Origin: a virus
IMG/VR virus record: IMGVR_UViG_3300029915_000768
Location: 1-50,393 of that record
Strand: one strand, 5' to 3'
Length of the DNA stretch: 50,393 nucleotides
Each line of letters starts with the position of its first letter. Position 1 is the stretch's first letter. This document shows, piece after piece, positions 11,337 to 49,432 of the stretch. A program made the translations under genes and the position numbers. The notes below the pieces were generated by a model, which was given only the letters and a program-made list of their open reading frames with translations, ran no database searches and was not told the origin of the DNA.

Positions 11337-11648
11337 ATGATACCAAAAATGCATTGGACCGAAGTTTTAGTTAATGGTCGTATAAAATCACGAACAAATT
11401 CCAAGAGATTATTGGAAGCACTTCTTGACAGTGGTGTTTCATATTGTTGTGGACTATGTGGCATTATCTCATGGTGTGGCCACTCAATCACTCTTGAAAT
11501 TCATCATCGTTCAGGTCAAGAAACCGACAATAGAAAAGAAAACCTTATATTACTTTGTCCCAACTGTCATTCCATCACTCCAAACTATCGTTCAAAAAAT
11601 CGTGGAAAATTAAATGATATGGATATAGATGAAATCTACCTCGGCTAA
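11337..11648 (+). CDS. HNH endonuclease
   Basis: 103 residues. CGLCGI, then LEIHHRSGQETDNRKENL and LLCPNCH form a typical HNH beta-beta-alpha-metal site with two Cys pairs. The N-terminus (NGRIKSRTNSKRLLEALLDSG) is basic and may bind DNA. It is either a small homing nuclease or one acting during DNA processing. Predicted to be translated from a leaderless message. Its TAA stop lies inside the late box of the next gene. Confidence 0.82.
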   Translation: MIPKMHWTEVLVNGRIKSRTNSKRLLEALLDSGVSYCCGLCGIISWCGHSITLEIHHRSGQETDNRKENLILLCPNCHSITPNYRSKNRGKLNDMDIDEIYLG

Positions 11649-18916: not shown

Positions 18917-18922
18917 TATTTA
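18917..18922 (-). promoter_or_regulatory. T4-late-like box upstream of gp15
   Basis: ACTAAATAA on the minus strand, containing the gp17 stop codon, 20 bases before the gp15 ATG. Confidence 0.55.
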
Positions 18923-20491
18923 GTATATCCCCATGATGAATGGCATTGGAAATGAACCTTCATTAAAGTCATCATCGTCTTCAATATCTGTTATAAAGTC
19001 TTTCAATTGCTCTAGCATTCTAACAATCAAAATTGTGCTCATAACAAGATCGTCAGTCTCTCCGGGTTTTGCCTTATAACTGTTACCACATGCCACAAAT
19101 GAATTCAATTCTGAAACCAGTTTCTTGCTATATAATTGCATCTTTCCAGATTCAATAACAGATTTTAGTTTTGAACATGCCGTTAATTTGGTTGTTGAAC
19201 CTGTATTAAACCCTTTTCGATATTGTTTGACCACTCCCATTTTGTGTCGTTCAGATAGAAATATTCCCGGTATATTCTCTTCTCCAAAGTCTCTAATTGC
19301 TACCAGAATTGCTTCTCCAATTGAATTATTTTCAATAGAATAATACACTGAATTTGGCGTTCCAGTAATACCCACAAGATAACTTGTAATATCTTTCAAT
19401 AATTCAACTTGTTTTTCAATTACAGTTTTATTGTGTGTCCATTCACCAATCTGTTCATAGGTCCGTGCATCAAAAATTTGAATTGCCGCTGGATCGCCAC
19501 CAGTACCAATACTGGGATCTAAACCAACAACATACAAATTACCCTTCGTGGGCTTCTTATACCACCTAACTTGACCAATTTTTTCAAGAGGTTCAATCCC
19601 CCTTAATTTAAGTAAAGTATTGGCATTGATCAAAGTTTCTTCTGCTACCAAGAATTCACATAAAACTTCTCTTCGAAATTTTTCATCGCCAAGTTCTGCT
19701 CGTAATTGATCTGCCCATGCTTGATCACGCTCTGGATGTTCATCCCATTTAGATGAAAATGCTTTGAATCCATTTTTACCTAAACCATCTTGTCGAGTAT
19801 TACCAAATTCATCAATAATATCATTTGCACCATTCCATAATCTTGCAAACTCAGATTCCAAAGATGATGGTGTACTAGTTATAATAAACTTTCCACCAGT
19901 GGAAAGAGTGGGTGCAATAGAACTCATAAATTCCGATGCTATTCTGTGCGGAACAAATGCATATTCGTCGGCATAAAGACAACTTATAGATAATCCACGC
20001 CCAGTAGTCGGTGTAGTTGTTTGAGCAAGTATTCTAGAACCATTGTCAAAAGTAACACTCTGTTTATTATAATCAAGAATTCCAGCACGTAGAAAATCTG
20101 GACATGACTCATAGCCAAATTTTACGCGGCTAATTATTTCCGTGCTTCCGGTGAGTTTGTGGGCCGCAATTAAAATTGTTTGATCAGTTTTAAACATCGC
20201 ATACCACAATAAATATCCAGCGGCGGTGGCTGTCTTACCAGATTGGCGCGGCTGCATACAAATTGATTTTAGATTAAAATGATAGGTATCAAGTAATTTT
20301 TCTTGATATGGAAATAATTTCAATAAAATTTTTCCTTGGGTTGCATGTTGAACAAAGAAGTAATTATTTATGAAATATTTTGGACCTGTAATTGGATCAG
20401 CGCATTTCATAAATTCACGCAATTGATCATTGGTAAATGTCGTTTGTTGATACGGCTTTTTAAGTAATTCACTTTCGCTAAACTTCGCCAT
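18920..20491 (-). CDS. gp17: Terminase large subunit gp17
   Basis: 523 residues. The ATPase domain has Walker A QPRQSGKTATAAG (about residues 81-93) and Walker B SCLYADEYAF; coupling motif ITSTPSS follows. The nuclease domain starts with VVGLDPSIGTGGDPAA (first catalytic Asp) and has IENNSIGEAI and DDLVMSTILIVRM, as in T4-type gp17. It pumps DNA into the prohead and cuts concatemers. The start codon is five bases downstream of a late box, with no ribosome binding site, so a leaderless message is predicted. Confidence 0.95.
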   Translation of the reverse strand: MAKFSESELLKKPYQQTTFTNDQLREFMKCADPITGPKYFINNYFFVQHATQGKILLKLFPYQEKLLDTYHFNLKSICMQPRQSGKTATAAGYLLWYAMFKTDQTILIAAHKLTGSTEIISRVKFGYESCPDFLRAGILDYNKQSVTFDNGSRILAQTTTPTTGRGLSISCLYADEYAFVPHRIASEFMSSIAPTLSTGGKFIITSTPSSLESEFARLWNGANDIIDEFGNTRQDGLGKNGFKAFSSKWDEHPERDQAWADQLRAELGDEKFRREVLCEFLVAEETLINANTLLKLRGIEPLEKIGQVRWYKKPTKGNLYVVGLDPSIGTGGDPAAIQIFDARTYEQIGEWTHNKTVIEKQVELLKDITSYLVGITGTPNSVYYSIENNSIGEAILVAIRDFGEENIPGIFLSERHKMGVVKQYRKGFNTGSTTKLTACSKLKSVIESGKMQLYSKKLVSELNSFVACGNSYKAKPGETDDLVMSTILIVRMLEQLKDFITDIEDDDDFNEGSFPMPFIMGIY

Positions 20492-20496
20492 ATAAC

Positions 20497-20502
20497 TATT
20501 TA
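20497..20502 (-). promoter_or_regulatory. T4-late-like box 5 bases before gp17
   Basis: ACTAAATAG on the minus strand; exactly five bases to the ATG, no Shine-Dalgarno sequence. Confidence 0.55.
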
Positions 20503-20506
20503 GTTA

Positions 20507-21947: not shown

Positions 21948-21968
21948 GCCAATATTGGCTCACTTTTT
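21939..21968. terminator. Bidirectional terminator shared by convergent genes
   Basis: Perfect 15-bp inverted repeat (21939-21953 with 21954-21968) built on AAGTGAGCCAAT, with A-run and T-run at the ends. The TGA stops of both the endonuclease and the opposing 131-residue gene lie inside its arms. Confidence 0.85.
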
Positions 21969-22355
21969 TGTGGGATGAATTCCTGAATTATGATTATTGG
22001 GACTATGATTATGAATTTCGTCAGATTCCGCAGATGCCGAATTACTCAATTTTCGAGGGGCAAATCCACATATTTTAGCAGCGCGATTTATCATATCTTG
22101 GTCAGCCGATGAATATCCAGCGGAAAACGGATGGTCTGCACTAATACTTGATTTTCCGATTTTTGGTTCATCTGGAAAACTGGCAGCTAATATCATGGCG
22201 CGATAATGTCCATATGCACTCATAGTTGGATACCAAGTTGCATTTGGCATTGCTTTTGCATGATCTGGTCGAAGTTTACCATCTCCACCAGATTCATGTT
22301 TGTCTTCTACAAGGGGGTATCGTTTTTTTCGTAGTGGTGACACTGTTCTTTCCAT
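21960..22355 (-). CDS. Hypothetical late protein
   Basis: 131 residues, basic N-terminus (SPLRKKRYPLVED), then HYRAMILAASFPD and ISADHPFSAGYSSADQDMINRAAKICGF, a pattern suggesting a small virion or packaging protein. A late box lies five bases before the ATG without a ribosome binding site, so it should be leaderless. It sits between the homing endonuclease and the second terminase-like gene. No family recognised with certainty. Confidence 0.6.
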   Translation of the reverse strand: MERTVSPLRKKRYPLVEDKHESGGDGKLRPDHAKAMPNATWYPTMSAYGHYRAMILAASFPDEPKIGKSSISADHPFSAGYSSADQDMINRAAKICGFAPRKLSNSASAESDEIHNHSPNNHNSGIHPTKK

Positions 22356-22360
22356 ATAGG

Positions 22361-22366
22361 TATTTA
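22361..22366 (-). promoter_or_regulatory. T4-late-like box 5 bases before the 131-residue gene
   Basis: GCTAAATAC on the minus strand, containing the stop codon of the upstream terminase-like gene; five bases to the ATG. Confidence 0.55.
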
Positions 22367-23002
22367 GCCGCCGAACGCAATGTATGGAATATTCCCAGCA
22401 TTAGCTTCTCGATACATCATTGCAAATGTGGCGAATGGATCACATATGGTTGAGAACATATGAACTTTTGAATTATAACTATTTGCAATAGGTAAGAGGG
22501 ATTCGAATGTTTTATCATTCACAAAATTGGCTTCATCTACTAAAATAAGATCGGCTCTATGCCCACAGCATGATGTTCCTTGTGTTATAGTTGATCCATT
22601 CTCAAAAACAATTTTAGTAATGGTTTTAGAGTATAGCGGAATATTCAGTAATGCAAGATCTTCAATAATGTTTTGCATGGTGTATCTACCTGCCACAAAA
22701 AAAATTTGGTAATTTGGATTATTGTATGCCATCCAAATTGCATAAGCAGAAAGAGTAGAAGTTTTCCCGCACTGTCTCTTAAAAACTCCAAGTGTTCGAT
22801 TATAATTGATCAAATGATGAATCATATCTTGAACTTCATCATTCGTCATAATTGAATGATCTGTGACGGGAATGTATTTGCTGACGAATGTAGTGGGAAT
22901 GAATAATTTGTGGACGAATGTCGAGAAGTCTTGTTCTTCTGCATCAAGAATTTTTCTTTTATTTATCGGGGATAATGCTCGATTTGCCGATTGATATGCC
23001 AT
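22364..23002 (-). CDS. Second terminase-like ATPase without nuclease domain
   Basis: 212 residues. FKRQCGKTSTLSAYAIWMAY is a Walker A region parallel to the gp17 sequence around QPRQSGKTATAAG. Next come YQIFFVAGRY, KIVFENGSTI, ADLILVDEANFV (Walker B with Glu) and HMFSTICDP (coupling motif position). The protein ends where gp17's nuclease domain would begin, so it is an ATPase half only. All ATPase motifs look intact, arguing against simple decay. It could regulate packaging, act with another subunit, or be a former duplicate of gp17. A TAAATA box is two bases from the ATG, and AAAGGA is also present. Confidence 0.75.
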   Translation of the reverse strand: MAYQSANRALSPINKRKILDAEEQDFSTFVHKLFIPTTFVSKYIPVTDHSIMTNDEVQDMIHHLINYNRTLGVFKRQCGKTSTLSAYAIWMAYNNPNYQIFFVAGRYTMQNIIEDLALLNIPLYSKTITKIVFENGSTITQGTSCCGHRADLILVDEANFVNDKTFESLLPIANSYNSKVHMFSTICDPFATFAMMYREANAGNIPYIAFGG

Positions 23003-32172: not shown

Positions 32173-34971
32173 CTATTTAGTTTTTGGAAATTCGATGTAC
32201 ATAGATCCTTCATCTTCTTGAAGAAATACATTACTACCATTTACATTCCACCCAGCTTCTATAATTGAGGCATTTGATAATAATCCAAAGCTATGTAATG
32301 GAGAATTCACACCATCATATAATAAAAACGGAGTTCCATAATTGTTGATCAATTGAATATTACCAATGGCGTTTATATTTGCGGAAATTCCATCAATTGC
32401 CATTGCATTTATATTTGAGACAATCTCCCCATCGGCAATATCAATTGTTACATTTCCCAACCATTCATATGCAATTGGATAAAGATTTGAATATGTCGAT
32501 GTTGGAATAGAAGAATTGATTGTAAAACTTCCATTGGCAAATGATACATCCGAAGGATTATAGCCAGTCACAACATATTGAGGAGTACAATTCCAATTTT
32601 CACTATATCCACAATTCCAAACATATCTATCGGACAACGCCGTGATGGTATTCAATGGATAATTATTGTCAAAATATTTCTGCAAATAAAACTGAATTCT
32701 TTTACCTGTGTTTGGCTTTACATAAGCAATAGGAATTGCAGGGATGAATCCAATTACCGTTCCATCGGGTTGAGTGTCACTCATCCATGTTGGTATTAAA
32801 GCATCATTGCTGGCACTCAGATGGCTCACCAAGCGATCCATTATGTTTGGAAGGGTGGCAGGGTACCCAACAGCCTTATTTGTCGTAATATCGCCAGAAA
32901 AAGTGATTCCTTCAGTATTGGTATATATGTCCAATGGCTGAATATATAATACTTCATATCCTTCAGTTGTTGATTGCGCCCATTTAATATCTGTAAATAA
33001 AAACTGCTTTTCTGAATGATATTTTTGTACGGCCTGAACAATGATGTTTGAGGTTGTTGGATAAATTCCATAGGCCATGAGAATATGTTGTTGATCTGGT
33101 ATCCCAAAATAAAAATCGTCTGGTCTAAAAATATCGGTGTTCTTTATAACACTTTGATCATGCGTTGCAGAATATATTGCATCATAATCATGTTTATCTA
33201 AAAACACTTCCATCCAAAGATTTGTCAATGGTGCTGGAGACTCTGACACAACCGTACATACATATCCTTGTGATGAGGTAATATAATGTGCCGCAGTCGC
33301 GGTTATAGAAAAATAGCATTCTGTGATATTTGGAGTTTGTGGAAGCACCCTTCCAACGATCATTCCATTATCTTTTAATTCTAATCCATCTGGTAAAGAA
33401 GAGTTATCCAAAGAATATACAATGGAGTTAATTTTTTGAATTGTAGATATCCCTTCGATTGTTATAGCTGGAATCACTTGAAAATTATTACCAGTGTTTT
33501 CTATACTTGTATTTGCAATATGCCCATCGTAGATAATCGCATTTATAATAGGATTGGTTGTTTGTCCTGCGTCGGCAATTCCAATTGTTGCAGTATCATA
33601 AAAATCACCAGTGTCAATGATATTGATTGTATCAATTCCAAAATCCAATTCTATAATTGCATTTTCACTCTCACCATCTGGATTTTGCCAAACATATGTT
33701 AGACTGCTTGGTAATTGTGTATACTGTTGATATTCTGAATTGATTGTAATCCCTGTGATGGAACCATTGCTGGTATTACTTACCACCAAATTTGCAACTG
33801 TATTGCAACTTCCACCTTCAACCAAAATAAAAGATCCATTGGTAAAGTTATCTCCACCAAATATGATATTTGCTCCTACAACTTTCAAGGTGCAATTAGC
33901 AGTTGCTGGAACAATCGTTCGGGTAGATAATGGTGCAATTATATTTGCATGAACTGACAAACTGGAAGGCATACCAGCTACAATATTTCCAAGATATGGA
34001 TTACCATACCAAGAAATTTTTTCAACATCTGGTGCCAAAATATTCAAAGTAATATTTCCATTACTGTGATAACTAGAGTTGGAAGTCTTTGATGCAGTAT
34101 AGGTAATGTTATAATCTTCTTGTGTTATGGTGTCTCGATTTATAATACCAGTCACAATGCCCGTTGTTGAATTAATTGAAACATTTCCCGGAATATTACC
34201 AGATGACAATAATGTATAACTTGTTGAATTATATTCAAAATCCTTGGTCACTGGCTGAAATGAAAAATGTTGACCAGATACATTGACAGTCGCATTACTA
34301 TTCAAAATCATCGGAGGATGATAATCAACATTTGAAATTGAATTACCATAGAATTTATTATATGGCATTGCCGTCATGGAATATTCAATATTAGCATTTG
34401 AGTTATAACTTACAAAAAATGTAAAAGTTGTAGTATTGCTATTTGGAAGATCTGGCTTGCCATATTCCATGTTCGGATTTATATTGGCACTTGAATATAG
34501 ATAAGTTGGATCAATGTATCCATAGATACTTCCAGTATTTGAATTCAATGATAAAAAGTTTGGAAAATTTCCACCAGAAATCACAATGTTAGAATTGAAC
34601 TCCGGCATGTAAAATAGCGGAGTAACGTTGGCTTTTATTATTTTGCCGTCTGGAAATATACCAATGTTTGAATTTGGAAATAGAGTAGAATCGGACACAT
34701 TCACAACGTCAATGGCAAATGATCTGTCAACCACCATTCCCGCTTTTGATGTTATTCTAATGGTAAAATTGTATACTCCAGATAATACATCATATGGAAC
34801 AATTCCATATAGATACAATCCATCCAAATATAAACCGTCTGGTAGTTGTCCACTAATAATTGTAAAATTGGCTGGCTCATTATTGGTGTAACAAAGAAAC
34901 TCATATTCAAAGGAAGTATTCTTAATTACAGTTGCGATGAGTCCAGCCGGTGTTTGCCAATAAACATTCAT
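32173..34971 (-). CDS. Large virion protein with Ig-like repeats
   Basis: 932 residues. It begins VYWQTPAGLIATV, FTIISGQLPDGLYLDG and YNFTIRITSKAG, the putative-Ig (He_PIG) repeat signature; further copies appear as FPNFLSLNSNTGSIYGYI, PGNVSINSTTGIVTG and LPDGLELKDNGMIVGRV. The C-terminal ~300 residues are different (PTSNIIVQAVQKYH, YVWNCGYSENWN). Such proteins decorate tails or form long fibres that touch the cell. Asn/Ser/Thr-rich throughout. Late box 16 bases before the ATG; its stop lies in the late box of the next gene. Confidence 0.75.
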   Translation of the reverse strand: MNVYWQTPAGLIATVIKNTSFEYEFLCYTNNEPANFTIISGQLPDGLYLDGLYLYGIVPYDVLSGVYNFTIRITSKAGMVVDRSFAIDVVNVSDSTLFPNSNIGIFPDGKIIKANVTPLFYMPEFNSNIVISGGNFPNFLSLNSNTGSIYGYIDPTYLYSSANINPNMEYGKPDLPNSNTTTFTFFVSYNSNANIEYSMTAMPYNKFYGNSISNVDYHPPMILNSNATVNVSGQHFSFQPVTKDFEYNSTSYTLLSSGNIPGNVSINSTTGIVTGIINRDTITQEDYNITYTASKTSNSSYHSNGNITLNILAPDVEKISWYGNPYLGNIVAGMPSSLSVHANIIAPLSTRTIVPATANCTLKVVGANIIFGGDNFTNGSFILVEGGSCNTVANLVVSNTSNGSITGITINSEYQQYTQLPSSLTYVWQNPDGESENAIIELDFGIDTINIIDTGDFYDTATIGIADAGQTTNPIINAIIYDGHIANTSIENTGNNFQVIPAITIEGISTIQKINSIVYSLDNSSLPDGLELKDNGMIVGRVLPQTPNITECYFSITATAAHYITSSQGYVCTVVSESPAPLTNLWMEVFLDKHDYDAIYSATHDQSVIKNTDIFRPDDFYFGIPDQQHILMAYGIYPTTSNIIVQAVQKYHSEKQFLFTDIKWAQSTTEGYEVLYIQPLDIYTNTEGITFSGDITTNKAVGYPATLPNIMDRLVSHLSASNDALIPTWMSDTQPDGTVIGFIPAIPIAYVKPNTGKRIQFYLQKYFDNNYPLNTITALSDRYVWNCGYSENWNCTPQYVVTGYNPSDVSFANGSFTINSSIPTSTYSNLYPIAYEWLGNVTIDIADGEIVSNINAMAIDGISANINAIGNIQLINNYGTPFLLYDGVNSPLHSFGLLSNASIIEAGWNVNGSNVFLQEDEGSMYIEFPKTK
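32174..32179 (-). promoter_or_regulatory. T4-late-like box overlapping a stop codon
   Basis: ACTAAATAG on the minus strand, overlapping the stop of the Ig-like protein gene, 16 bases before the ATG at 32157 with CAGGAG. Confidence 0.55.
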
Positions 34972-35026: not shown

Positions 35027-35242
35027 CTAAAATCGGTAAACAATTCTCGCTAATTCAAGGGAATACGGACTTAGCTCCAATTGAACTTCATCACCCGGTT
35101 CAATTCGAATTAAATTCTTTCGAAGTTTTCCCCCAAGATATGCGGGAATCTCCTGACCGTTTTCCAACTCAACAATCCAATGTGTGTTAGGTAATACTCT
35201 AACGATCTTCCCTCGTATTGACACTTGATCTTCTCTTGCCAT
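35027..35242 (-). CDS. infA: Translation initiation factor IF-1 homologue
   Basis: 71 residues, the length of bacterial IF-1. MAREDQVSIRGKIVRVLPN, VELENGQEIPAYLGGKLRKN and IRIEPGDEVQLELSPYSL follow the S1/OB fold of IF-1 almost without gaps, including the basic KLRKN patch that contacts 16S rRNA helix 44. IF-1 sits in the ribosomal A site and shapes start-site selection. It is the last gene of a three-gene operon starting at 36700; GGAG precedes the ATG, which follows the previous stop directly. A phage copy is unusual. Confidence 0.88.
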   Translation of the reverse strand: MAREDQVSIRGKIVRVLPNTHWIVELENGQEIPAYLGGKLRKNLIRIEPGDEVQLELSPYSLELARIVYRF

Positions 35243-35431
35243 CTAAAACTCCAACGCCTTTACAAATTTGTTTGAAAGGATTTTTCTTGCATATTCCCAT
35301 GCTTTATCTTCACTGGAATAACCAATTGATACAAGGTCACCATCGATGATAATGCTGTGTCTACCAGATGCGGTAGTTTCGCATATAGCATTTGAAAACA
35401 TTCCTCGTACAAACTTCTCATCTTCATTCAT
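35243..35431 (-). CDS. Hypothetical small protein upstream of IF-1
   Basis: 62 residues from ATG 35431, with GGAG 11 bases upstream. Beta-rich (ASGRHSIIIDGDLVSIGYSS) with a helical end (KAWEYARKILSNKFVKALEF). The stop abuts the IF-1 start, suggesting coupled translation. A longer frame extends upstream to 35512 without a better start. Function unknown. Confidence 0.6.
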   Translation of the reverse strand: MNEDEKFVRGMFSNAICETTASGRHSIIIDGDLVSIGYSSEDKAWEYARKILSNKFVKALEF

Positions 35432-35524
35432 ATTTAGGACTCCAAAAAGTTTAGTATCACAACCATTGATTGTGTCAAGTGCAAAGTGAGAGAGATATGA
35501 ATCGCTTTGCACTTGACCTAAAGA

Positions 35525-36700
35525 TTACTTTACCGTTCGTAGAATTACACAATCAATTCCAAAAGTATTTCGAATTTGGGTTTCAACAGCTTTGATTTTT
35601 GCAAACCATTTTCCGCTTGCTGGTTTTCCAAGTTTTGCAAATTCGGAAAGTTGTTCCTCTGGTTTACGAATTGTCTTTTGGAAACTTTTCGTATTGTCAA
35701 CGTTAAGAATTTTGTTTCCTTTTACGTCGAAGGTACAACCAGCCATTGCAACAAAGTGTTGAAGTTTTCTCTTCTTCACATCATACGCCCAAATTTCCGT
35801 GCTCTTTAAAATGTCAATCGGATTAACAGAGGTTAATTTCAATGAAGGACATTCCTTCATATACTTCAGTTTACCAACAATTTTAGAGGGTGTCAAGGTC
35901 TTTTTCTTACGAGGTTTCCGCTCAACTTTTTTGCTGGCTCCAATTAATCCAACTTCATCAATTGCGCGTTCAATCCATGCAACACAATTCTTCAATTCCT
36001 TTTTAGATAAATGGGAATATGCTTCGACCATATCAGCTTTTCCAGCAAGGGCTTGTCGATGGTCAGTAAGATAGTAATTGTTCAAGTATTCAATGATATC
36101 TTTGAATCGATTTGCAGGAATGAGACTGGCAATACTCTTGACAGATTGATGACCCAGTGTATAATTGCTGTCAACAAATTTTGTAAATAGATCGTCAATT
36201 TCGCCCTTGACAAGCTTTACTTTCGCATTCAAGGCAACCTGAATATTTGGCTTTGTAATTACCTTTTCCGTTTCTGACTGTATAGTATGTTGGGATTTAA
36301 TACACTTCCGAAAGGCTTTAACCATAAATCGTTTTTCGTGAAATCTTGGATAAAAACCCAGATGCATCATTCGAATAAATTTAACTACGGTGGGGTTTAG
36401 ATCAACTAAACTTCCTTCAATCTTCTTCGCCAACTCTTGTCCACGAGGAGTCAATAAAAGAGTTTTGATCGCCAATTTGAATAAATCTTTGTTGTCTTGA
36501 GCAGTGTTTGCGTACCACGAAAATGATTCAACCATTTTCATTTGATACTGATCGTGACTCCATGATAATTGCTCAGTATAATCAGGGAAGGTTGGCTCTG
36601 AAAATCCAACAAATTTTGCTCCATCTCCTTTAAAATATAAAGGATGAGGTTCCTTAAACGATGTTGGTTTTAATGTTTGTAATTTAATTTTCTTGTTCAT
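35525..36700 (-). CDS. Hypothetical protein, first gene of the IF-1 operon
   Basis: 391 residues, basic, mainly helical. A Lys/Arg-rich hinge (KKVERKPRKKKTLTPSKIVGK) lies near residue 260; the C-terminal domain (TEIWAYDVKKRKLQHFVA, SFQKTIRKPEEQL) is beta-rich. The basic hinge suggests nucleic-acid contact. I recognise it as a type of conserved phage protein but know no function. Confidence 0.65.
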   Translation of the reverse strand: MNKKIKLQTLKPTSFKEPHPLYFKGDGAKFVGFSEPTFPDYTEQLSWSHDQYQMKMVESFSWYANTAQDNKDLFKLAIKTLLLTPRGQELAKKIEGSLVDLNPTVVKFIRMMHLGFYPRFHEKRFMVKAFRKCIKSQHTIQSETEKVITKPNIQVALNAKVKLVKGEIDDLFTKFVDSNYTLGHQSVKSIASLIPANRFKDIIEYLNNYYLTDHRQALAGKADMVEAYSHLSKKELKNCVAWIERAIDEVGLIGASKKVERKPRKKKTLTPSKIVGKLKYMKECPSLKLTSVNPIDILKSTEIWAYDVKKRKLQHFVAMAGCTFDVKGNKILNVDNTKSFQKTIRKPEEQLSEFAKLGKPASGKWFAKIKAVETQIRNTFGIDCVILRTVK

Positions 36701-36708
36701 ATTTCCCC

Positions 36709-36737
36709 ATACTACTCGATAATAAATTTCTTGTCAA
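36709..36737 (-). promoter_or_regulatory. sigma70-type promoter of the IF-1 operon
   Basis: On the minus strand TTGACA (36732-36737), 17-base spacer, TAGTAT (36709-36714), directly before the first gene. Confidence 0.7.
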
Positions 36738-37013: not shown

Positions 37014-39041
37014 ATGAATGGATTGACTGGACTTCAAATAATTGCCGCTAATGAATTACAGAATGGAAGTGGGTTATCTGCTCCTGATATCACCGCTAAT
37101 TATTCTGCGTATCTGTCGTTTTTGCCTGTGTCGAATTATCTATCGATTTATAATGGAATAAATTCAAATCCGAATATTGCAATTTCTTCGGCAAATGCAA
37201 ACATACTAATCTCGTTAGGATCAAATTCGTTTCCGGTATTGTTCGATCAAGTTCCGTTTGAATCGACTAGCAAATTAGGTTATGGTCCTATGATAGAGAT
37301 TGCATATAGAAATACCTCCAATCTATTTGCGAATGGAGCGAATAGCTATATTCAATCTTTGACAGTGGCACAATCATATGCTGCGACGGCGCAGACAACT
37401 TTACAGAGTGCTGCAACTGCTCAATGGGTAGGTGGTCCTCAGTCTTCAATTACCGGTGGTTTTTCTAATATTGGCGGAAATGACGCAACTTCATTTTGTA
37501 ATATTGCAAATGTTATTTCTGAGATGGGAACATTGATGAATCCGTCAATTGCTTATACTGGGTTTAGTAATGCCGAGTGTTTCAAGGAAATTTTGAATAC
37601 TGATAAAACTATTGGAAATCTTCACAAGAATTTTTTCGGTAAAACAATATTTGATCCTGTTACAAAAAGTAACATGATTATCAACGAGAAACTTTTCGAC
37701 TATATTATTGGAAATCCTTCTGGAAAAACTTCCGATGATTCATTTCAAATTGTGGCATTGAATCCCTTGGATGAAATTTTAGGAAACATGGCAAATATTG
37801 CATTACAGGATATTGGTGATCTTGATGCTGTTGTAACTTATTTTAATATTGGGCCGAGTATCGCAAGTAATATCTATTATTGGTCTGATTGCTTGAATTT
37901 GAAAATTCTATTTGGATCATTATATGATACTGTTCAAAAAAATATTGGAGATACTTTGGATACCTATTCATTTATTCAAACCTTGGTGAATAGTATTTCA
38001 GGTTTATCAAAGTTACAGAGTCTTACTGAAGTGGGAAATGCCATGAGTAAAATTACTCCATTGCAAAATACAAATCTTATAATGGTCATGAGTCAACCAG
38101 TATCAGCTAATATGTATGCGAATCTACAGGCATCATTTGGAAATGGTTCTGGTACATATGGAAATCCTACTGTTGATGATATTCTTGGTGGTACAAACTA
38201 TAATGATGTTATAAGTAATTGTATCTCGGTACTTTCCCCTTTGATTTATACGAATGATTATGCAAATATTGTTGCCGACAGTAGTAATATTGCGAATGCC
38301 ATAAGTGGAACCGTAACATATCCCATTATTTTATCGAATGGAACTTCGTGTGATACTTTGGATATTTTAGCAGGAGCCTGTGGAAATCTTATCAATAATA
38401 CTGCCTTGAATTTATATTCAAAGACTTTTCCAAGTTCACCATCATCTTCTTTATCATCGGGATCAAGTACAAATAGTATTGCCTCAACGGTTGCAGAAAT
38501 ATCTTCAATCGCGGGAGTAGCAGCTATTGGATTATCTATGATATCTTCTTTCTCATCGTTGGCATCAAGCCATAATCTTTCAATGTCATTTTCGAGTGGA
38601 GAGGTAAAGGATTTTGCAAAGACTATTCTTGGCGCAGTTGCTTCAAATGTTTTGGCCGATTTGAAAAGTATGGATGCATTATATAAACTTGTGGTATCAA
38701 TTGTATTTTCAGTTTGGGAAGCAAGCATTAACGTAAACATGGATATGATACCAAAACCACCTATGCTATTGAAATGCCCAAATCCAAGTTCAATTTTGAA
38801 ATCATTTCCCTCAATGCTGGCATCCTTATCGGCCTTGGAATCACAAATACCCATGGCAAATGAAATTTCCGGTTTGAGCAATATTACAAATTGTTTGAAT
38901 ATGGCTTCGTTGGGAGGTCAAGCGTTGTCTGGAGTGATGACCGAAGCTAAAAATATAAATGCATTGTCTGCAAGTGGTTTGAGTTCTAGTGCATACAGTT
39001 CAGCATCTGCTGTCATTTCATCTGGAAAGAATAAAATTTGA
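37014..39041 (+). CDS. Large Ser/Asn-rich protein, probably virion
   Basis: 675 residues, rich in Ser, Asn, Ala and Ile. The N-terminal part is mixed; residues about 500-560 (SIASTVAEISSIAGVAAIGLS and following) form a long hydrophobic/Ser stretch that may be membrane-active; the end is Ser/Ala-rich. Length, composition and late promoter suggest a tail or tape-measure-like component or injected protein; the sequence shows no known domain. The predicted message is leaderless. Confidence 0.6.
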   Translation: MNGLTGLQIIAANELQNGSGLSAPDITANYSAYLSFLPVSNYLSIYNGINSNPNIAISSANANILISLGSNSFPVLFDQVPFESTSKLGYGPMIEIAYRNTSNLFANGANSYIQSLTVAQSYAATAQTTLQSAATAQWVGGPQSSITGGFSNIGGNDATSFCNIANVISEMGTLMNPSIAYTGFSNAECFKEILNTDKTIGNLHKNFFGKTIFDPVTKSNMIINEKLFDYIIGNPSGKTSDDSFQIVALNPLDEILGNMANIALQDIGDLDAVVTYFNIGPSIASNIYYWSDCLNLKILFGSLYDTVQKNIGDTLDTYSFIQTLVNSISGLSKLQSLTEVGNAMSKITPLQNTNLIMVMSQPVSANMYANLQASFGNGSGTYGNPTVDDILGGTNYNDVISNCISVLSPLIYTNDYANIVADSSNIANAISGTVTYPIILSNGTSCDTLDILAGACGNLINNTALNLYSKTFPSSPSSSLSSGSSTNSIASTVAEISSIAGVAAIGLSMISSFSSLASSHNLSMSFSSGEVKDFAKTILGAVASNVLADLKSMDALYKLVVSIVFSVWEASINVNMDMIPKPPMLLKCPNPSSILKSFPSMLASLSALESQIPMANEISGLSNITNCLNMASLGGQALSGVMTEAKNINALSASGLSSSAYSSASAVISSGKNKI

Positions 39042-39073: not shown

Positions 39074-39487
39074 ATGCATAAAATAATGAGAAGTTTGCTC
39101 ATTGGAGCATTTTTGTTTTTAAATCATGGAATAATTAAGGCTGAAACAGATCAGTCTTGTCTCGCGAAGACTATATATCGTGAAGCAAGGGGTGAATCTC
39201 GTCTTGGACAAACGGCAGTAGGACAAGTAATTTTGAATAGAATTCGGGCTGGAATGGGCAGCACGGTTTGTAAAGTTGTTCATTCAAATCAATTCAACCA
39301 AACCAGAATTCATATTCCCAAGGATCAGATTAATTATTACATGGTGTTGGCTTCAACATTGTTGAGTCACCAATCGGGAATTTATTTTCCTCCTAACCTT
39401 CTGTTTTTCAATAATAAACCTTTGAAAATAAAGAAAACAAAATTGTATAAAATCATTGGAAGACAACGATTCTACCTGCAAATTTGA
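39074..39487 (+). CDS. SleB/CwlJ-type cell wall hydrolase, secreted
   Basis: 137 residues from ATG 39074. MRSLLIGAFLFLNHGIIKA looks like a signal peptide with cleavage before ETDQ. Next is CLAKTIYREARGESRLGQTAVGQVILNRI (split in two motifs: YREARGE with the catalytic Glu, and GQVILNR), the core of the Hydrolase_2 family. It would cut peptidoglycan at lysis, exported by the host Sec system. The downstream promoter overlaps its stop. An alternative start is the next Met at 39086. Confidence 0.83.
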   Translation: MHKIMRSLLIGAFLFLNHGIIKAETDQSCLAKTIYREARGESRLGQTAVGQVILNRIRAGMGSTVCKVVHSNQFNQTRIHIPKDQINYYMVLASTLLSHQSGIYFPPNLLFFNNKPLKIKKTKLYKIIGRQRFYLQI

Positions 39488-48894: not shown

Positions 48895-49176
48895 ATGTCC
48901 GACATTAAAGTTAAAGAACACGTTTTAAAAATCTATCCAGATGCCAAGATAGTAAATGATTCCCATAATTACGGTAAAAATAATGGGGCATTATATTCAT
49001 ATATCTTGGTATCTGGATTACCAAAAACAGATGGTGTAATTCATATGGATATGCTTCATGTGATTCAAGATAAAAAAGTAATTCCTCGCAGTGGTTTTTG
49101 TAGATGCGAAGAGGATTGTTGGAATAGTGCATGGAATAGCATATTGGAAATAACGGAGAACGCATTCAATGACTGA
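48895..49176 (+). CDS. Hypothetical protein, paralogue pair member 1
   Basis: 93 residues. VKEHVLKIYPDAKIVNDSHNY, later CWNSAWNSILEITE, parallels the next gene's VKKVYSDATIIKDKTNY and AWKSAWEEIQ. The two form a tandem duplicate pair overlapping by eight bases. Function unknown. Confidence 0.62.
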   Translation: MSDIKVKEHVLKIYPDAKIVNDSHNYGKNNGALYSYILVSGLPKTDGVIHMDMLHVIQDKKVIPRSGFCRCEEDCWNSAWNSILEITENAFND

Positions 49177-49432
49177 CAAAGATCATGTAAAAAAAGTTTA
49201 TTCAGATGCTACTATCATCAAAGATAAAACTAACTATCGAACCAAAAACCTAATGGCATTTTCATATATTGTTGGTCTTGGATTTGAACCTTCCGATGTT
49301 GATATTGACTTTTATACTGATAAAAATCCAGATCATTATTATGTAGGAGAATGGTCTGCTAATGCACAAGATGCGTGGAAGTCGGCATGGGAAGAAATTC
49401 AAAATAAACTTTTGGAAGCACTGGAGATGTAG
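49169..49432 (+). CDS. Hypothetical protein, paralogue pair member 2
   Basis: 87 residues, paralogue of the preceding protein along its length. The pattern Y.DA.I..D..NY, a strand, then an AW.SAW.EI helix suggests a small alpha/beta fold. Function unknown. Confidence 0.62.
   Translation: MTDKDHVKKVYSDATIIKDKTNYRTKNLMAFSYIVGLGFEPSDVDIDFYTDKNPDHYYVGEWSANAQDAWKSAWEEIQNKLLEALEM

Follow-up and report, generated by a model that had tools for sequence, protein, structure and literature searches.

Initiation factors carried by phages are known from very large genomes: IF1 and IF3 have already been reported in huge phages, together with the idea that they redirect host translation (PMC7162821, Al-Shayeb et al. 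2020), an initiation factor is conserved in the Jug phages, and Sinorhizobium phage AP-J-162 carries an IF-3. These phage-borne factors raise the question of whether viruses retune start selection. Here we analysed an IF-1 gene in the window, that is, the whole 50.4-kb stretch of viral DNA. The window IF-1 is of an already known kind, a phage IF-1, and is phage-adapted, and its clade allows a sharp test of that question, combining two late-gene classes with an IF-1 that departs from every cellular IF-1 sampled.

A bacterial-type IF-1 on a T4-related genome

The window contains genes of T4 type, which encode gp17, the tail sheath, UvsX, SSB, the clamp loader, PhoH, NAD ligase, RNR, a tRNA nucleotidyltransferase (CCA-adding enzyme) and polynucleotide kinase, and it has nine tRNAs. 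Among isolates, its terminase comes nearest, at 47-50% identity, to those of the PA5oct-like Pseudomonas jumbo phages, of Sinorhizobium phage Phosso and of Agrobacterium phage Atu_ph07. Because the 360-kb viral contig G042 bears both an IF-1 and a terminase, 66% and 60% identical to those of the window, respectively, the window is most likely a fragment of a jumbo-type phage. About 50 tRNA genes are predicted in G042 (1-40 kb and 160-180 kb), some of them with the anticodons cta and tta, which would read stop codons; these are possibly suppressor tRNAs or miscalls. No IF-1 was found among 35 records of terminase relatives, but most of these are short fragments, in which its absence tells nothing.

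35027..35242, minus strand: phage IF-1 (infA), 71 aa, assigned by profiles, ungapped PDB alignment and an AF2 model

The infA ORF reads from 35242 to 35027, the plus strand over this interval being broken by stops. An earlier note on this DNA had described a 71-residue protein matching bacterial IF-1 without gaps, and its coordinates are right, with the gene on the minus strand and three resources in agreement: the TIGR00008 infA equivalog gave 85.9 bits (cut-off 61.15, E 1.4e-24), Pfam eIF-1a (PF01176) gave 62.2 bits (cut-off 30.2), and IF-1 chains in the PDB matched at E ~1e-19 in ungapped alignments over residues 1-70/71. An AlphaFold2 model with viral sequences as the only input (pLDDT 89.7) adopted a five-stranded OB barrel with a short helix, and superposed on 30S-bound IF1 with TM scores of 0.90 (1hr0_W) and 0.91 (9fco_I). 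The curated profile, the ungapped alignment and the modelled OB fold all mark the ORF as a true bacterial-type IF-1.

Six further distinct viral IF-1s are orthologues of the window protein (66-82% identity), and across the seven dN is 0.17-0.34 while dS is at least 1.3 or saturated, indicating purifying selection. A tree built from 105 IF-1s grouped the seven as a monophyletic clade (100/99), which has a long stem and is nested within an exclusively viral group, the deep forks being weak since the tree rests on 71 columns. The window IF-1 is 51% identical to E. coli IF-1 and 58% to the nearest cellular protein found; the low identity to cellular IF-1s and the tree rule out a recent host capture of infA, and the clade is, as read from the sequences, an old viral lineage adapted to phages.

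The probability that a bacterial infA was joined to a viral contig during assembly is negligible. Some database 'phage' IF-1 matches, such as Acinetobacter MD-2021a, are indeed bacterial DNA, but here IF-1 stays beside the phage genes F3, F1 and F2 on independent viral contigs, a synteny that rules out a chimera; moreover, the nearest cellular IF-1 is too distant, at just 58% identity, and IF-1 and terminase lie together on one 360-kb contig (G042). The Acinetobacter record (CAKLQH020000005.1, 'Acinetobacter phage MD-2021a') has the appearance of a contig from a bacterial chromosome, with truA, leuBCD and asd around infA, and was rejected as an IF-1 phage; the IF-1 matches in Staphylococcus, Enterococcus and Listeria OR84xxxx records are suspected to be bacterial DNA likewise.

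We compared the clade with 140 cellular IF-1s, 80 of which were picked by a pattern covering positions 61 and 63-65, so that for these positions only the other 60, which span two phyla, count. The clade retains G11, L17, P18, N19, V24, G38, R41, I45, R46, D51, V53, Y60, R66 and R70. K/R39, R41, R46, Y60, R66 and R70 are present in all seven members, which thus keep the main rRNA-contact residues (R41, R46, R66 and the C-terminal R70); the C-terminal arginine is reported to be essential for 30S binding (PMC4611024). By contrast, position 61 is Ser in 7/7 clade members and Asp in 140/140 cellular IF-1s (60 of them counting here), T63E and L48E each occur in six of the seven, and S37G, F22W and H30Q are further departures from the cellular proteins. 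Residue 64 is L, L, R, Q, L, K and M across the seven, with Leu in the window, and is basic in two of them versus 60/60 proteins of the unbiased cellular panel (K, R or H), a conservation in cells that is no criterion of the TIGR00008 family model. By numbering taken from the ungapped 1hr0 alignment, this residue would correspond to Arg64 of T. thermophilus IF1, which according to a review disrupts A1413-G1487 pairing (PMC4611024). The earlier note had proposed inspecting the rRNA-contact residues: most are retained, whereas basic residue 64 is gone in the window and in 5/7 clade members. The clade-wide changes at sites that hardly vary in cellular IF-1s (D61S, T63E, L48E, S37G and F22W) and the loss of the basic 64 in most members could reflect altered effects on the ribosome instead of plain replacement of the host factor.

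Bacterial IF1 has RNA chaperone and antiterminator activity, and the phage protein might no longer be an initiation factor, serving instead as an OB-fold nucleic-acid binder of that sort. We consider this improbable: the modelled OB fold, the substitutions at sites invariant in cells and the position within an array of functionally uncharacterised small proteins would all suit such a binder, but the protein has kept its main rRNA-contact residues and the length of an IF-1, and the score lies well above the infA equivalog cut-off.

Late boxes five nucleotides before the start codon

Relative to the transcription start, the late boxes of T4 span positions -13/-12 to -6 (PMC1524935). The T4 box TATAAATA was rejected as the late box here, as it is not enriched; the late box was scored instead as NTAAATA (any base followed by TAAATA), mostly CTAAATA or ATAAATA in this genome, with the gap counted in nucleotides from box to ATG. 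The gaps were bimodal, being either exactly 5 nt without a Shine-Dalgarno sequence or mostly 13-30 nt with one, and mostly 16-18 nt for the Shine-Dalgarno-led late genes of the window. Because T4 boxes end at -6, a gap of 5 places +1 on the A of the ATG, and gp17 and the other gap-5 late genes are predicted to be leaderless.

With boxes taken as independent and a mechanical gene set, G042 contained 26 genes at gap 5 versus 0.44 per other short gap (P ~1e-36), and the window five (11337, 18920, 21960, 37014 and 39074; P 6e-4). A Shine-Dalgarno sequence precedes 2/26 gap-5 genes of G042 versus 186/464 other genes, permuted motifs yielded 0-2 gap-5 genes, and the spike recurred in all clade records examined. 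The permuted motifs rule out chance as its source, as do the distribution of gaps and controls on bacterial sequence.

18920..20491, minus strand: terminase large subunit (gp17), CTAAATA at gap 5, predicted leaderless
37014..39041, plus strand: 675-aa protein with a gap-5 late box, the gap kept in the G042 homologue (same N-terminus, MNGLTG)
39074..39487, plus strand: endolysin-like cell-wall hydrolase whose box, TATAAATA, ends 5 nt short of the ATG, predicted leaderless
21960..22355, minus strand: 131-aa ORF with a gap-5 late box, predicted leaderless
11337..11648, plus strand: 103-aa ORF with a gap-5 late box, predicted leaderless

The late box of gp17 (20497-20503 in the window) lies 4-6 nt before the ATG in 44/78 environmental terminase relatives with varied flanks, and a leaderless gp17 is predicted clade-wide. 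The leaderless gp17 and virion mRNAs described in the earlier note are thus borne out at the promoter level, as a prediction from a gap-5 box and a missing Shine-Dalgarno sequence. A second ORF with similarity to the terminase ATPase (212 aa, 22364-23002, minus strand) lies upstream of gp17, with the 131-aa ORF and, on the opposite strand, an HNH homing endonuclease gene between the two; in Atu_ph07, too, the terminase annotation falls on two neighbouring ORFs.

We found no description of leaderless late genes in T4-like phages in the open-access literature searched, and this conserved class in environmental T4-like phages, gp17 included, is of interest independently of IF-1, perhaps being the more novel of the two observations. 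The isolated Pelagibacter phage HTVC008M (NC_020484), one of whose gap-5 genes is annotated as baseplate wedge initiator, offers a cultivated system in which leaderless late mRNAs can be examined.

IF-1 expression and its relation to the leaderless class

35249..35252, minus strand: GGAG, Shine-Dalgarno-like sequence of IF-1, identified from sequence
35243..35431, minus strand: small protein of the F1 family (hmm E 1.9e-16), 62 aa when counted from the ATG, frame open to 35512
35525..36700, minus strand: F3 protein, 391 aa, phrog_11903 (function not known), presumably heading the transcription unit of IF-1 in the window
36709..36737, minus strand: TTGACA-17-TAGTAT, a sigma70-like promoter (10/12) upstream of F3 that presumably drives early transcription of the unit ending in IF-1
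32173..34971, minus strand: 932-aa Ig-domain protein, next gene downstream of IF-1, preceded by a late box and a Shine-Dalgarno sequence of its own (gap 16)

A Shine-Dalgarno sequence precedes IF-1 in the window and in the clade relatives inspected, and in the window the TAG stop of the upstream F1 ORF abuts the IF-1 ATG, making translational coupling of the two genes likely. A perfect (12/12) TTGACA-17-TATAAT lies 17 nt before IF-1 in L020 (the G042 copy) and 23 nt before it in L017; the whole 360 kb of G042 holds just two perfect sigma70 sites, one of them this site. The strong sigma70-like match nearest to IF-1 in the window scores no more than 10/12, and that located at a gene start is two genes upstream of IF-1. 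Given the Shine-Dalgarno sequence and the perfect sigma70 promoters in two relatives, we infer that IF-1 is an ordinary leadered gene, and it looks early and general. NTAAATA matches also occur upstream of IF-1, at 21-30 nt in L016 and L019 and at 16 nt in L017, and in these relatives IF-1 may be transcribed late as well. The Ig-domain gene is, judging by its own late signals, a separate late unit.

The early-type promoter, along with the altered C-terminal YDLTRG motif, would also fit a dominant inhibitor that fills the A site, works poorly with host IF2 and IF3 and stops host initiation early. Such a role is very improbable, since the phage needs the same ribosomes, many of its own genes are Shine-Dalgarno-led, and the orthologues remain near IF-1 under purifying selection.

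F1 is a paralogous family of small proteins of about 60-90 aa, with window copies at 35243-35512 (minus strand), 48895-49176 (plus strand) and 49169-49432 (plus strand) and a modelled alpha-beta-beta-beta-alpha fold (pLDDT 96). G042 carries 77 copies, ~65 of them within one 23-kb array (245.6-268.2 kb) with IF-1 mid-array, and the other clade records have 31, 19, 6, 3, 2 and 1. For F1, Pfam and PHROG gave single weak matches only, PDB sequences gave none below E 0.04, a fold search returned dsRBD-like matches of which none was significant, and named phages gave no match.

IF-1 and the gap-5 class co-occur in every record of the window clade examined, and many environmental IF-1 contigs carry gap-5 boxes. 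Elsewhere the traits occur separately: HTVC008M has 11 gap-5 genes (P 3e-8) and no IF-1, whereas Phosso has an IF-1 but no clear leaderless class, the 400 kb covered of its 469 kb containing two gap-5 genes (P 0.045). T4, Syn9 and 121Q have neither gap-5 genes nor IF-1; Atu_ph07 and PA5oct have two gap-5 genes each, not above chance, and no IF-1; and two 100-kb terminase relatives show the gap-5 class with no IF-1 within that stretch. There may be a weak statistical association of IF-1 with the gap-5 class, the clear dissociations numbering just two. Owing to HTVC008M and Phosso, the link between IF-1 and leaderless messages is not supported, and the co-occurrence of infA and 5-base late boxes in related phages, which the earlier note had suggested checking, breaks down in these two. 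Its proposal that the phage IF-1 retunes host ribosomes toward the phage's own late messages finds no support either, as the traits dissociate and IF-1 is Shine-Dalgarno-led and looks early.

Published in vitro work found that leaderless translation is stimulated by IF1 and IF2, and inhibited by high levels of IF3 (PMC9031893), so some contribution of IF-1 to leaderless translation is possible. An IF-1 tuned to favour leaderless late mRNAs is nevertheless unlikely. Without a basic residue 64, it would distort helix 44 less and relax start selection at the subunit level, such that 70S or 30S particles accept a 5'-terminal AUG. This would accord with the co-occurrence of all clade IF-1s with gap-5 late genes, with the variation in the clade at the residue aligned with the Arg64 reported to disrupt the A1413-G1487 pair (PMC4611024), and with the in vitro stimulation by IF1 (PMC9031893). 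However, HTVC008M has the class without IF-1 and Phosso the reverse, IF-1 looks early, two clade members with R or K64 still keep gap-5 late genes, and other viral IF-1s near gap-5 genes retain T(K/R)GRI. We likewise regard as highly doubtful that the clade IF-1 is a specialised start-selection factor whose altered helix-44 and C-terminal contacts shift ribosomes to leaderless late mRNAs, perhaps with the dsRBD-like F1 proteins of the surrounding genes acting on the same step.

Proposed role and comparison with known systems

IF1 is needed for ordinary initiation too. Taking these observations together, we favour, with a probability of about 0.68, a phage-adapted IF-1 that is made early from sigma70-type promoters and acts as a general supplement to or replacement of host IF-1, with the leaderless mRNAs being a separate trait. 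IF-1 would be transcribed early from host sigma70-type promoters and translated from an ordinary ribosome-binding site; the protein would bind, as host IF-1 does, to the A site of the 30S subunit and would supplement or displace the host factor, so that initiation of all phage messages stays high after host gene expression is shut down. It would form part of a translation kit with the tRNAs, the CCA-adding enzyme and polynucleotide kinase, and the leaderless late mRNAs would be a late-promoter trait that IF-1 may help without having been built for it.

Compared with bacterial IF-1 (TIGR00008, PF01176), the window IF-1 shares the length, the ungapped alignment, the OB fold and K/R39, R41, R46, R66 and R70, whereas its clade differs by D61S, T63E, S37G, L48E, F22W, H30Q and the mostly lost basic 64. 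The IF1 of huge phages (Lak phages), the Phosso IF-1 and PHROG 30201 are also phage-borne, and their genomes are large and encode tRNAs along with further translation genes; the window clade is 44-49% identical to the Phosso and Lak proteins and forms a separate, long-branched lineage located within an F1 array. The late promoters use the same box as those of the T4/Aeh1 type (TATAAATA / CTAAATA, gp55), here mostly as CTAAATA or ATAAATA, but the boxes of T4, Syn9 and 121Q lie mostly 12-30 nt before the ATG, whereas about a quarter to a third of those described here lie exactly 5 nt before it.
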